Below are positions 1 to 7,014 of a stretch of DNA of 64,000 nucleotides, piece by piece. This stretch comes from Sparassis latifolia (taxonomy: Eukaryota > Basidiomycota > Agaricomycetes > Polyporales > Sparassidaceae): assembly GCA_018466975.1 (NCBI GenBank), contig CM031562.1:124001-188000 (forward strand), in the 5' to 3' direction. Under the pieces are notes generated by a model. The model was not told the DNA's origin and made no database searches. It saw nothing but the letters and a program-made list of their open reading frames with translations. The position numbers were made by a program, and so were the translations under genes. Numbering within the stretch: position 1 is the first letter of the stretch; the number at the start of each line of letters is the position of its first letter.

Positions 1-2629
1 CTAGCAGAAGGTGTCATCGAGCCGAGTGAGTCCCCTTGGTCATCTTTATTGATACCGGTAAGGAAGAAAGATGGAACTATGCGGATTTGCGCCGATTATC
101 GTCTACTGAATGAAAAGACGATTCGCAATAGTTACCCTTTACCACGCATTGATGATTCATATCAAAATTTAGCGGGAGCTCATTATTTTACGTCTCTCGA
201 CCTCAAATCAGGTTACTGGCAGGTACGTCTCACCGACGATACTAAACCGAAGACCGCATTTCAAACTCGATTCGGTCATTACCAGTTTCATGTCATGCCC
301 TTCGGGCTAGTTAATGCTCCTGCCACCTTTCAAACCATGATGAATGACGTTCTACGTAACCAGCTCGATAAGTTCGCCATGGTTTATCTCGATGACATCA
401 TAATCTACTCACCGACATTGGAGCAGCACATCCAACATGTCAATGCCATCCTTAGCACCCTTGCCGCACACAAACTCATCCTTAATGAAGCCAAATGTAT
501 ATGGGGAGCTACCGAACTACTCTATCTCGGACACATCATTTCTGCCAAAGGTATACATCCGAACCCTGATAAGATATCAGCGATATTGACTTGGCCTCAT
601 CCCCAGACCATAACCCAGCTCCGGGGTTTCTTGAATATCGCTGGCTATTACAGACGTTTCATACGGAGTTTTGCGAAGACAGCTAGAGCTCTCTACTCTC
701 TCTTGAAAGGATGTCTGCAGAAGGGATTGACTATTGAATGGCCTGAAAGTTGTGCGCAGGCATTTCAAAATTTGAAACATCATCTCACCAGTCCGCCTCT
801 GCTTATCTATCCAGTTCCATGGCGAGTTTTCGTCATTGACAGTGACGTGTCCGATGAATGTATCGGAGGAGTTTTACAACAAACATCTTATTCACTCGAA
901 GCGTCTAGTGAAGGGGGAAGGAATAGCGATTCTTCTGATGCTCGCTTCGAGTTCCGTGATCGCGATCTTCGCCCTATTGCCTATGAATCTCGTCGTTTGA
1001 CACCAACCGAACAGAGATATTCTGCGCAGGAGTGCGAGATGCTGGCTGTTGATTATTTACTTCAAAAATGGCGTGCCTATGTCGAGGGGTCACCTATCAT
1101 CATCAGGACAGACCATGAATCATTGAAATACTTTCTTACTCAAAAGAATCTCGGCCGTCGTTTACAGCGCTTTGCTGACAATATTGCCCATTTTGACGTG
1201 AAGATTGTCTATCATCCAGGGAAGCATCAGCTCACTGCTGATGCATTATCACGATGCGATGATGAAGACATACCGGATTCTGATACATTGGGCCCGCTCT
1301 TTGCTCATCCTATGGTTGTGGCGCCAGCACCTACACTTCCACACACGAATAGTGTGGATTTGATTTTTGGTTCCGAAGAATGGTTGTATCACAACAACCA
1401 AGCCGAACCGGCACCCAAATCGTCTCGAGAACAGACAGAAGAACCTAGGTCAGTGTACCAGACACTAAAGAAATGGTATGATAGCTTACACGCGAAAGCC
1501 GATAGTGGTGACTCTAGTCCTGACCAAAGCGGCTTCTTCATATGCGGCGATGTGATGTATCGCCTTCTTGATAATAAGGTCTTGGTGGTTTCTATGAATT
1601 TTGAGCAATCGGAGATGTTAGTACGGAATGTTCATCAGGATCTTGGTCACCTTGGTTTCCGACCAGTTGTTGAAGCCATCAAGGACCATGCCTGGCTGCC
1701 CGATCTTTCAGAGATTGTCGATTTCGTTATTCGCACCTGTGATCATTGTCAATTCTCACGCAGTGGCCCTGTCCCGACTCAACCTTTGCATCCTCTTTCA
1801 CGTGTTGGAGCTTGGAGTCATTGGGCTCTTGATTTCGTCAGTCCCCTCCTGCGTACAGCCGCCGGTAATGCATATTTATTGACCGCAATGGACCACGGCA
1901 CTGGTTGGACCTACGCAAATCCACTCCCGCAACGCTCGAAGGAAGCTGTCATTTCGATGCTGAAGAAAATTATTACTGCGCATGGGAAACCTTTGAATAT
2001 CCTGACCGATAACGGTGAAGAATTTATATCCTACCTGGTTCAAAATTTCCTCCGCTGTCTTTCGGTCAATCACCTTCACACGATGCCCTACCACCCGCAA
2101 ATGAATGGTCGCCTTGAGTGTTTCAACTACGAGCTGAAAGAGATGTTAATGCGCTATTGTGCCCCGAATTCGCAAGGTAATTGGGATACTTACATTGACG
2201 ATGCCTTGCTGGCGCACCGCGCACATATCAATCGCCACTCAGGGACCTCCGCATTTTATTTGACTTACGGGTGCATGCCTCGTCTGCCTCACGATCTCGT
2301 TGCTGACACTATTCAAGTGCCTCCTACCGATGAGGAGATTGGTCAGCTACAGAACGAATGACTTGAACATATCCAGGACTTGGAGTGCCTCCGTGAAGAG
2401 GCTAATGAATGTGCTAGGCGCCACCTTGAAGAACAAGCTGAACACCACGAAAGTTCCTATCGTGAGCATGCTTTGGGAATTGGAGATCTTGTTCTTCAAA
2501 GGTCAGAACCTGATTCGAAAATCCACCCGTGCTGGGATGGACCGTTCATTATCCGAGATGTCACTGATAAAAACACGTATCAGCTTAGCACCCACAATGG
2601 ATATATCCTCCGTCGACTCTACAATGGAG
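1..2629 (+). pseudogene. Ty3/gypsy retrotransposon pol (RT-RNase H-integrase), 5' truncated by the window and broken
   Basis: The frame is open from base 1, so the element begins outside the window. Reverse transcriptase comes first, with MPFGLVNAPATFQ and the catalytic YLDD box at 385-396. RNase H follows, with an acidic residue near 837, TDHESLKYF and TADALSR near 1110-1250. The integrase has an HHCC zinc-binding segment near 1630-1755, catalytic D near 1828 and 2010 (TDNGEEF), and E near 2115 in GRLECFN. A GPF-type C-terminal module (CWDGPFIIRD) lies near 2530. This order (RT, RNase H, integrase) defines Ty3/gypsy rather than copia. An in-frame TGA at 2359-2361 interrupts the integrase and the same frame reopens at once. 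The frame is then cut at 2629 by a DNA transposon and resumes at 6881. No chromodomain is visible. It is a dead copy of an autonomous element. Confidence 0.93.
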
Positions 2630-2682
2630 TGGGGGTGGGCAATGCCCGCAACGGAAACGGGCTATTTGCACATGTTTGTTCC
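2630..2682 (+). repeat. Left TIR of the 4.24-kb transposon
   Basis: 53-bp inverted repeat, 52 of 53 bases matching the right end; the mismatch is at 2669. Direct target duplication AATGGAG lies immediately to the left (2623-2629). Confidence 0.93.
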
Positions 2683-3099
2683 TCTATAACGTCCGGTTCC
2701 ACTTCCATTGCTCTATGCCCCTGTCCGCAACTTCTTCCACGTCCATAGAAAAATTTATCTGTATGCCTGATAATTCATGAAAGATGCATGGGCAAAGTTT
2801 CTTTGCGGTGCTTTTCCAGATTCTGTGGTTGTTAAGCAGAAACTTCAATATCTCTGAGGAATTGCCCTGCGGATTTCTTTTCAAGCCAAAAAAAAATTAA
2901 GTACCACAAAGGATGTGTAGCCATATGTCTCATGAACAAGCTTTCTCGACAGTGAAAAGGATTGGTGGAGGGAGTGAAAAGATGCATGGGCCGTCACAGG
3001 AGGAGTTTGATCCTCAGAACACGAGCGCTTAACAGTCCGAACTACGCTAGATCTCACTCCACATACCTCGGCCCATCTCTCTACCCTTGAATCTTCACG

Positions 3100-6000
3100 A
3101 TGGGGCGCACTCTGGCTCAAAAGGCTCACATACAGTGCCTGAATGCACTTCACCCTTCTAGGCAGCCCAACGTATCGATCAGGAACGCTGAAAACTGGCC
3201 ACCTGGTAGAAAGAACACGAAGAACAGTGAAATTCAAGCACACTTACTCCGACTCACCAGTGATCTGGCAACGAAGGATTCAGAAATCTGTAGGTTACAG
3301 GAATTGCTTGCTGCAGCTACACACCATGCTTCTCGCCTCTCTGCGGATATTGCTAACTGAGACAAGACATTGAAAGCACTTGAAAATGAAGTTCTAGTGC
3401 TCAGGCAGCAACTGGAGGCTCGGGTCTCATCTGGAAACACTGCCCTAGTGAACCTCTCTGGCGCTCGAAAGGATTTACAGAAATCTCGTGCACGCAATCT
3501 TCATCTGGAACGAGAAAGACGGACCCTGCGCTCGAATCTTACTGCTAAAGTGTCTACTCTGGAGAACCATCTTGCACTTGAGATTACCCAGAATCGTGCT
3601 TTGTCTGCTGAGTCTCTTTCTCAGATTGCTGCTCTCACTACTGCTTTGGAGAAGTGCTATGCAAATCTAGCCCACCAGAAAGCCATATCGGCCTCACGAC
3701 GGAAACAGGCTCGTACCTGGGAGAAGTGGGCACATCGCGCTCAACAATCCCGTGTGCGCTCTCAGTGTTCCTTAAAGAAGCTTTCGGTCTGGCACCCCAC
3801 GTCTTCCCGGGTGTACTCACCTGCAGCACGATGACTTGCTCGGCAACTCATGAAGGCGGGTTGTGCAGGAGACAAGATCAAGTATGCGATCACGGCATGC
3901 AGACAAGCCTTCGGTATCAAAGTGGCCCGAGGTATCTCACGTCGTACAGCAGGTCGCGCAAAGCAGGAGGCAGGTGTATACGGTTTGATGCAGCTAGGGA
4001 GGGAGATCAGCAATGCACCCGGTACGTTTTCCGAGTTATTGAAATACCTTATTCTTATTCTGTTGATAGCTTTCGGAGAGAGTACAGATGGTACCACACA
4101 CCGCAAGATTACGTATGAAGCGAGGCACATTACACTCGCTGTACCTAGTTATGCTCCTGGTGTAGATGATTCCGACAAATCAACTTGGACATTTCGCACG
4201 CGATTTGCAGAAGTTGCTCCTGCGCTCGATCATACTGCACAATGCCAATTCAAGGGCTCACAGCAGCTGGCGGAGAAAATCTTGCAGACCTATAGCAACA
4301 GTCCTCTGGCCACTCGTGAAGGACAGTCTATGGAAACTAATGATTGGATACGCAAACAAGTGATGCAGAACATGGATCATGCAGCAGACGGGAAGAAGAA
4401 ATTCAAGCTGTGTCAAGATTGGAAAGAGGACGTGACACACCATGACCTTGGACGTGAACGGATGGATGTTCTGTCGTCGGCAGAGCTTGTGACGGCCATA
4501 TGTTCTATCTCAGCAGATGACATTCGCCAGGTTGCTGGTGATGCAACAGAGTTGTAAGTCGGCATTATGGAACTTTGTTTGCTAGTTAACCTAGACAATC
4601 AATAGGTCACTGGAGGAAAAGAGCAAGATTAGGCTCAGACTACTAGAGAGGCAACTTGGTGACATCTCTTTTAATGAACTCCCCTCGACTCAACAACGTC
4701 TCATTGATCTCTTCATCTTCAGTGGTTGTTGTGGCCACAAGGATCTCAATGCATTCAAGTATGGTGTTGTCGCGATGGGAATGAAATGGGAGAACATGGA
4801 GCTTCCACCGCCAGTCCTCCTTGCAAACAAGGCTAATGATGCTGTTATCAAACTTGGCCAGAATGCAGATAGTGCCGCTGTGCAATGTGCTATGGACTCC
4901 AGTGCTCACGGTGGCGTCAAGCTTACAGCTCTTGCAGGGGCACTCTTTCGACACAAGAATGATGACACAGGATATCAGGACCGACATCGCATCTTCATGG
5001 CATTGTGAAAGAAGGAGTTGCATGACGAGAACACAAATCGGCGATTTCCTGATACGTCCAACACACGCTATCAGGCATATTCGTATGGTGCCTGTGAACT
5101 TGTTGTCTACCATCACCTGTACGTCGAGCTAATGGAAGAGATCTGCAACAGCAAGGCCAAGCCAGGAGTCAACTATCTCGAGAGTAATGTCGCAAAGGGA
5201 TTGCAGGATGCCTCGACTCTTGCTGAGCTTGCAGCCATGGCACTATACGGTGTCTCTGTATCGTGGCCTTATCTTAGCCAAGCCTGAGGTGATGGCTCGA
5301 AGATTGTGAACCTTCTCGACCTCACGGAACTACACCGCAAACTCCCCACCTTCTGCAATCATATTGCACTCCACCCTACTCTTCTTCTTGACTCTAATGC
5401 TCCACTGGACGAGGTTACACTTGATGGCAAACCATTCATGGACAAGATGCTACTCGCTGCTGTGTGCATGCTTGCCCCTGATCTCCCTGGGCTCACGTGC
5501 ATGATCAGTGCTATGTTCTCTGGTGCAGCAAAGGGATGGGTACAGTTCACCACAGAATTCACTGTCGGTGGACCATTTGACTCTCTGACACCTGCGGAAC
5601 GTGCACTAGTCTTCATCCCATCCACCAATGATGCAAACGAGGGTGCCCTCGGCTCATGGCGTGTCCATGCTCGATCACGTCCTAGCAGCACAGCCTCCAC
5701 ATTCTCTAGTCAGGCACGCAGTGAGCGTAACAACACCGAAGAGTTCATCGTGAAGTGCTGCAATGAGGATGACCAAGGGTACGTGATGCGGACTGTACGA
5801 ACAGCTGACGCTAGTGGTGAGAATGCACAGTTTCGAGAAGAACTGGTGGAGAATCAGCGGGAGCGTGCAGTCCAGTATCGCAAGAAGCAGGAGGAAGATC
5901 AACGAAAGAAGGATCGAGAGAAGGAGAGGTTGCGAAGCATTGGACTCATTACTGACCGAGATGAAATCCATAGAATGACTGTTGCACAACTCAAGGATCA

Positions 6001-6336
6001 AATTGACATACACCGAAGTTATTCAATGATGAAATCCTCCTCAATACAACCCAGAAGAGTCTGCCCAACAAAATTATGAAGATGTATGCTGTGCTGGCGG
6101 CAGTGACAAGGAACAGTGACTGGTATGTGCTTGTTGAAGCTCCCATCATTTTCATGTTATCAGACTTGGCCCAACTTCTCCTTAGTCTTGCAGACAACCA
6201 GCTAGACTTGGGGAATACTCATGCAAATACTGTGGAAGACACCCTGATCCACGATACCCCGGACCTCGATACCATCATGGACGACGTAAATACTAACATC
6301 GGGCTTGAAGCTGACTATGACATAGACATGTACTAA
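3100..6336 (+). pseudogene. Decayed large transposase-like protein of a basidiomycete repeat family, probable DDE with CxxH motif
   Basis: The reading frame starts at an ATG at 3100 and can be followed for about 1,050 codons. The first 240 residues are basic and then coiled-coil. An in-frame TGA lies at 3358 and another at 3832. A canonical 52-nt intron (4554-4605, GTAAGT...TAG) joins the frames correctly. TGA stops follow at 5006 and 5285, and a one-base loss near 6022 shifts the frame for the last 100 codons. Candidate catalytic residues by position are D in STDGTTHRK (4087), D in NMDHAADGKKKF (4375), the CxxH in SGCCGHKDLN (4727-4738) and E in NDANEGALGS (5639). A CxxH between the second D and E is a hallmark of hAT, KDZ and related RNase-H-fold transposases; its use here is my inference. 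From memory, many basidiomycete genomes hold uncharacterised proteins with DGTTHR, KKFKL and NDANEGALGS strings like these. The gene fills the element between the TIRs, which supports a transposase role. Confidence 0.72.
4554..4605 (+). other. Intron in the transposase-like gene
   Basis: Donor GTAAGT, acceptor AATAG, 52 nt. The upstream frame would otherwise end at a TAA inside the donor. Splicing links frame 1 to frame 2 and gives a continuous protein through the CCGH motif. Confidence 0.8.
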
Positions 6337-6820
6337 TACCTAACACTTTAAAATACTTTACTCTGTGCTATAATGGAATTGCTGTGCTTCTTGGCATCAA
6401 ATTCAGGGCTCAAAGTCGAGTTTGCTGTCTTCAGCGCTGGTAGAATTGCCCCGCCGCGGCGCGCATTGTACTTGCTATAGTATGCTCGCTCTTTCTGCTC
6501 CTCAAGCTCAACAACTCATTCCCTTGGTTTCTGCTTTGGTACATGGCTTCTATACATGCCTAAGCTTGTCTGAGCAACTTTTCAAAAATTTTAGACCACT
6601 TTGAAGCTCACGCAGAAAACGGTGTTGAGGTACCTCGCTGCTTACTTCTCGCATGACCCATAACTCCAGAACTAGTAGGTTAAAAAAATTAGAAATTTCT
6701 GAAGTATGTAGCGGGATATGTCACGAACATAATTTGTCTATAGCATTGACCGTTACATGCCATAGATCTTTCACAATTCGAAGACGGGCATTGGAACCGG
6801 GAGGTTAATGCATTTGGCAT

Positions 6821-6873
6821 GGAACAAACATGTACAAATAGCCCGTTTCCGTTGCGGGCATTGCCCACCCCCA
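6821..6873 (-). repeat. Right TIR of the 4.24-kb transposon
   Basis: Reverse complement of 2630-2682 with one mismatch. The second copy of AATGGAG follows at 6874-6880. Confidence 0.93.
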
Positions 6874-7014
6874 AATGGAGAGCGATTGAAATGGTACTTA
6901 CCTTCAAAACTTGATCCCGAGCCACCGTTATGGTATGCGAGTGCAGATTTACAGCAAAAGGATGCTGAAGCGAGACGAAAAGCTGTCCTTGCGAGACGTC
7001 GAGGACAGCACTGA
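6874..7014 (+). pseudogene. 3' remainder of the Ty3 pol frame after the transposon
   Basis: After the second target duplication the integrase C-terminal tail resumes (ERLKWYLPSKLDPEPP) and ends at TGA 7012-7014 with a basic tail rich in K, R and A. The resumption in frame shows that the DNA transposon is the younger insertion. The tail has no chromodomain. Confidence 0.88.

Follow-up and report, generated by a model that had tools for sequence, protein, structure and literature searches.

What is the insertion that interrupts a Ty3 pol frame in a 64-kb stretch of the Sparassis latifolia genome (contig CM031562.1, positions 124,001 to 188,000; hereafter the window), and what does the gene inside it encode? 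The window is part of the 41.4-Mb, 22-contig genome that was searched for related sequences. The insertion (2630-6873) is very probably a cut-and-paste DNA transposon of a hAT-like lineage for which no name was found, and the gene its transposase.

The ends of the element are sharply defined. Its terminal inverted repeats (TIRs) are 53 nt long, complementary at 52 positions (98%), and end in TGGGG..CCCCA; within the window, the first 20 TIR bases occur only at the two ends of the element when up to three mismatches are allowed (0.00 expected). The element is flanked by a 7-bp target-site duplication (TSD), AATGGAG, and by our reading of the frames the host Ty3 frame runs across the site once the insert and one duplication are removed. 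The initial annotation had described the 53-bp TIRs, the AATGGAG duplication and the Ty3 frame on both sides, all of which hold, with the correction that the host frame is itself interrupted by an in-frame TGA (2359-2361) just past the integrase domain; the host Ty3 copy, too, was already dead or died later. Joining the flanks with a single AATGGAG gives a sequence that is matched at six other genomic places, with one or two mismatches in 27 bases. These were inspected as short matches alone and are presumably Ty3 relatives.

A second copy with the same TIRs, split by a 3211-bp insertion, lies on contig C7. It is flanked by a perfect 7-bp duplication (ATCTCTA), and among lengths from 2 to 13 only 7 matches. 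Its empty site is matched at 30 of 30 bases at C7:203829-203858 and, with three mismatches, at another place, and reversed-pattern controls returned no matches for either site. Both complete insertions (2/2) therefore carry a 7-bp duplication, one within Ty3 pol and the other within repeated sequence. Because there are two TSDs with matching empty sites, we conclude that the element has moved. TIRs, a TSD, empty sites and a second copy elsewhere, as required of a cut-and-paste transposon, were all found.

The gene product contains a conserved set of candidate catalytic residues (Table 1). Conservation was counted in an alignment (A2) of 100 of the 114 relatives found by protein search, from which 14 fragments or odd gene models were omitted, and counts refer to rows with a letter in the column. 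Asp occupies the D99 column in 87 of 88 rows and the D195 column in 94 of 96, and Glu occupies the E600 column in 96 of 99, while C295 and H298 of the CxxH motif (window codons 4727 and 4736) are conserved in 100/100. Median spacings are 96 residues (D-D), 105 (D-C) and 301 (H-E), with a CxxH-to-E range of 239-319. Both predicted structures show an RNase-H fold with the first Asp on beta1, the second after beta4 and the Glu in the last helix, and the core is predicted to be split after beta5 by a helical insertion domain, as in hAT transposases. Hermes was the best solved-structure match for the two models, by a clear margin. Within the insertion, 92 of 97 rows share R408, and position 409 is Tyr or Phe in 97 of 97, never Trp; the pair is matched by motif only to R318-W319 of Hermes, which are named in PMC6027215. 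The acids proposed initially (D4087, D4375 and E5639) are exactly the conserved acidic columns; an RNase-H fold bearing them had been anticipated and is present in both models, and a fold lacking a DDE cluster, which would have counted against the proposal, was not what the models predicted.

Table 1. Coordinates of the element, its putative transposase gene and its insertion site in the window. Residue numbers are those of P0002 unless stated otherwise.
Feature	Position	Strand	Remarks
Whole element	2630..6873	+	4244 bp; second copy at G000:C7:172899-180359, 98% identical
Left TIR	2630..2682	+	53 bp; begins TGGGGGTGGGC
Right TIR	6821..6873	-	
Left 7-bp TSD, AATGGAG	2623..2629	.	letters read; empty-site matches
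Right 7-bp TSD, AATGGAG	6874..6880	.	letters read; empty-site matches
Host site, Ty3 pol frame	49..2622, resumes after 6880	+	RT, RNase H and integrase by Pfam
Probable transposase gene, decayed	3100..6336	+	exons 3100-4021, 4070-4553, 4606-~6122, perhaps 6164-6336
N-terminal coiled coil	3229..3789	+	limits approximate; P0102 model, helix of residues 65-198
Intron 1	4022..4069	+	GT..AG, 48 nt, open in frame
Intron 2	4554..4605	+	GT..AG, 52 nt
Putative first catalytic Asp	4087..4089	+	D99, predicted on beta1
Putative second catalytic Asp	4375..4377	+	D195, predicted directly after beta4
CxxH motif, CCGH	4727..4738	+	C295-H298, predicted directly after beta5
Arg-Tyr in NTRYQ	5066..5071	+	candidate counterpart of Hermes R318-W319; motif only
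Putative catalytic Glu	5639..5641	+	E600, in predicted helix 597-612

The protein belongs to a large family. The search, scored on residues 240-947, yielded the 114 relatives among 7993 scored candidates, and a profile search yielded 133, of which 120 were listed, for 178 identifiers over both searches. The closest relative among the scored candidates is from Wolfiporia cocos (62%), and Mycena galericulata contributes at least nine clusters across the two tables of relatives. Named relatives are annotated as hypothetical, uncharacterised, predicted or unnamed, and the remaining identifiers are metagenomic or nameless; those bearing an organism name are, we take it, Agaricomycetes (two genera were looked up). 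Searches of genomic contigs with P0001 and of viral contigs with A1 yielded no relative with DNA flanks. A large family lacking a functional name was what the initial annotation had expected, and relatives in both tables agree with this; its further proposal that this hypothetical family is a transposase finds support in the predicted fold, the conserved acids and the mobile element that carries the gene. A midpoint-rooted tree of the window protein and 34 other members splits into two deep groups; Agaricales and Polyporales are represented in each, as are Pluteus and Mycena galericulata. This pattern fits old mobile lineages and also old duplications.

Several results weigh against reading the gene as the transposase of a mobile family. 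Complete TIRs were found on just two copies, both in the same genome and neither intact; genome searches with P0001 and the distant member P0095 returned the same two copies only, and a 63-base TIR query returned only their four ends. The tree also groups members by fungal order, with 7 changes against 14.1 in shuffles (0/200 as low), and such clustering would be expected from old vertical descent as well. The acids were placed in the models by secondary-structure position only. Foldseek TM-scores against Hermes are low (0.16-0.30 of the query in one search and 0.10-0.26 in the other), and the Hermes match therefore concerns the core. A profile search of the PDB did not return Hermes among the best 60 of 68 rows, where matches were confined to the first 163 profile positions, corresponding to the coiled coil. 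Finally, no sequence-level match to a transposase was found by Pfam in the window protein, P0002 or 38 further members (best 25 of 32 families; hereafter the Pfam panel, its 39 members picked for diversity). The window protein has one weak match only (E 0.09), inside the coiled-coil stretch, P0002 has no Pfam family whatsoever, and the families found among the 39 members are mostly coiled-coil models. Stray matches, such as ferrochelatase in one gene model (E 0.00015), were disregarded as single strays.

Given a hAT-like transposon, the family may be a divergent hAT branch or a superfamily of its own. It resembles hAT, as represented by Hermes, in the predicted RNase-H core, the D-D-CxxH-E order and the long helical insertion that separates beta5 from the last helix; the arginine and aromatic residue within that insertion are a candidate further likeness, by motif only. 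It differs in its 7-bp TSD, its 53-bp TIRs beginning TGGGG, its N-terminal coiled coil and the ~100 residues that separate the second Asp from CxxH. The usual TSD of hAT elements is 8 bp, with 5, 6 and 7 bp also known. Neither the hATC dimerisation domain (PF05699, as a sequence profile) nor the BED zinc finger was found in the Pfam panel, and the hATC model has 27 matches in the genome, with neither copy of the element among them. The TGGGG ends do not fit the hAT TIR consensus [T/C]A[A/G]NG, which derives from a plant study (PMC6027215). As the searches turned up neither hATC nor BED, and the element has neither the consensus TIR ends nor an 8-bp duplication, it is not filed as hAT proper.

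There is close to an even chance that the family represents a separate eukaryotic cut-and-paste superfamily of the C/DxxH group and the sister of hAT. Such a superfamily would be ancient among Agaricomycetes and marked by 7-bp targets and long TIRs, and many of its transposases would be listed as hypothetical proteins. An ordinary hAT element, belonging to hAT7 or close to it, whose transposase has done no more than drift in sequence is a serious possibility, somewhat short of an even chance. The Hermes match of both models, the CxxH motif and the Hermes-like Arg-aromatic motif favor it. According to PMC12730594, hAT7 of Puccinia and Melampsora makes 7-bp duplications, a length and a basidiomycete host shared with our element, and is classed by the similarity of its transposase to hAT, grouping with Ac/Tam3-like hAT. 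By this description, on which the comparison with hAT7 is based, it is defined by a hAT-like transposase sequence, whereas the family studied here has no Pfam hAT similarity. The motif IPSTNDANE has the P-to-E spacing of IPASSVPCE in a hAT fragment of the same genome, which is a lead only, and its Pro is Pro in just 63 of 100 rows. The lack of hATC and BED matches where the hATC model does find genomic hAT sequence, the off-consensus ends and the long interval between the second Asp and CxxH likewise argue against ordinary hAT. The initial annotation had called a 7-bp target unusual for hAT or KDZ; the length stands in both insertions, and "unusual" is softened by the hAT7 and Kyakuja precedents in the same source.

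Membership in Dada or another C/DxxH superfamily (MuDR, P or Kolobok) is improbable. Dada, as described in PMC3706591, makes 6-7-bp duplications, has an xxxH motif after the second D and includes a fungal example in Laccaria, all points of likeness, but it has no TIRs and targets small RNA genes, unlike an element with 53-bp TIRs found in Ty3 pol and in repeated sequence. In the fold search, too, Hermes is clearly ahead; structures of the P element, RAG1 and MuDR were absent from the best 50 fold matches of each search, which by itself excludes nothing.

A KDZ element, with Kyakuja as the nearest candidate, is very unlikely. KDZ elements are abundant in the genome (164 domain matches, many with stops), and Kyakuja shares the 7-bp TSD and its occurrence in Agaricomycotina, the same fungal subphylum; its CA..TG ends, however, lack TIRs (PMC12730594), in contrast to the 53-bp TIRs here. 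PF18758 was not found in the Pfam panel, and neither copy of the element is among the KDZ matches listed. The A3 profile compared with partial KDZ fragments of the genome gave a probability of 0.1, whereas two KDZ sets (4 and 3 sequences) gave 97.7 with each other. The motifs of these fragments are also different: fragment L062 has YDIAC, HxxxHxxxC and GEGCER within ~60 residues, far closer than the CxxH-to-E interval of our family, although which of these KDZ residues are catalytic is something we infer. The hAT/KDZ-like fold suggested initially is thus retained in its hAT-like half, through Hermes, and dropped in its KDZ half, for which the Pfam and profile tests were negative. Equally unlikely is a host-derived cargo gene in a transposon that depends on a different transposase acting in trans. 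There are only two copies, both dead, and no sequence-level transposase similarity, but a DDE core is predicted for the product, and no second gene could be recognised between the TIRs (overlapping frames of 100-157 amino acids were not searched).

As for the gene itself, once the 48 nt of intron 1 are removed the protein matches the length of its relatives there, and a third intron is possible at 6123-6163. The remaining open frames of 100-157 amino acids overlap the gene or its flanks. The strings reported initially (DGTTHR, NMDHAADGKK, CCGH and NDANEGALGS) are present in the translation, and the coiled coil noted with them corresponds to the long helix of the P0102 model. The window gene is broken by four in-frame TGA codons and a frame slip near 6014. 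Over the coding stretch compared, the second copy has three in-frame TGA codons, none in common with the four of the first, and the single-base frame slips differ as well. Of 75 substitutions between the copies there, 70 are transitions, 45 of these at CpG, and the element has 169 CpG against 246 expected. This pattern fits methylation-linked decay of a gene that was intact when the two copies inserted independently, and both copies are dead, probably through CpG decay after insertion.

Other observations concern related sequences. The 3211-bp insertion in the second copy (L044:965-4175, G000:C7:173564-176774) has short inverted ends around ATCAGGAAAAA / TTTTTCCTGAT and no open frame above 157 amino acids, and it resembles another mobile element. 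Three sites are 87-92% TIR-like (C7:1906071, C12:2596191 and C15:149553; L046:4072-4124, L047:4192-4246 and L048:4535-4570), the latter two sharing long flanks. Within 4510-4870 bases downstream, no candidate second end scored higher than the best of 30 shuffles, and we take the three for solitary relics. A fourth site (G000:C11:4057496-4057546) resembles 51 bases of the element end (88%). A pair, TGTGGGTTGGCAATACC, on C10 was rejected, as it departs from the TIR past the first 17 bases and sits in a large palindrome; this palindrome (L045:504-6065) is near-perfect over ~5.5 kb, with arm pieces of 429-851 nt that are 96-100% complementary, and its arms contain the TIR-like 17-base motif pair. 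In Trametes sanguinea, a 2026-residue gene model (P0130) joins the family to a precomputed PF18759 domain (Plavaka); this is possibly a fused prediction, a fusion or nested elements.

Hermes cuts via hairpins on flanking DNA. In the proposed mechanism, the coiled coil and the helices ahead of the core would mediate assembly of the transposase and its binding to the TIRs, and the two Asp and one Glu would hold metal ions and cut both element ends, perhaps through hairpins on flanking DNA by analogy with Hermes. The 3' ends would then be joined to the target at a 7-bp stagger, whose repair would yield the duplication.

No name for the family was found in the literature searched, although one could exist in subscription papers or Repbase Reports. 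As far as that literature shows, the link between an unnamed family, defined element ends and a predicted Hermes-like DDE core is new. A large set of hypothetical mushroom proteins thereby gains a putative mechanism and a testable active site, and annotators could mask such genes as transposons rather than host genes. The family would also offer a deep branch for comparison with Hermes on how stagger length is set (7 versus 8), and the two copies illustrate the decay of such elements in the Sparassis latifolia genome.
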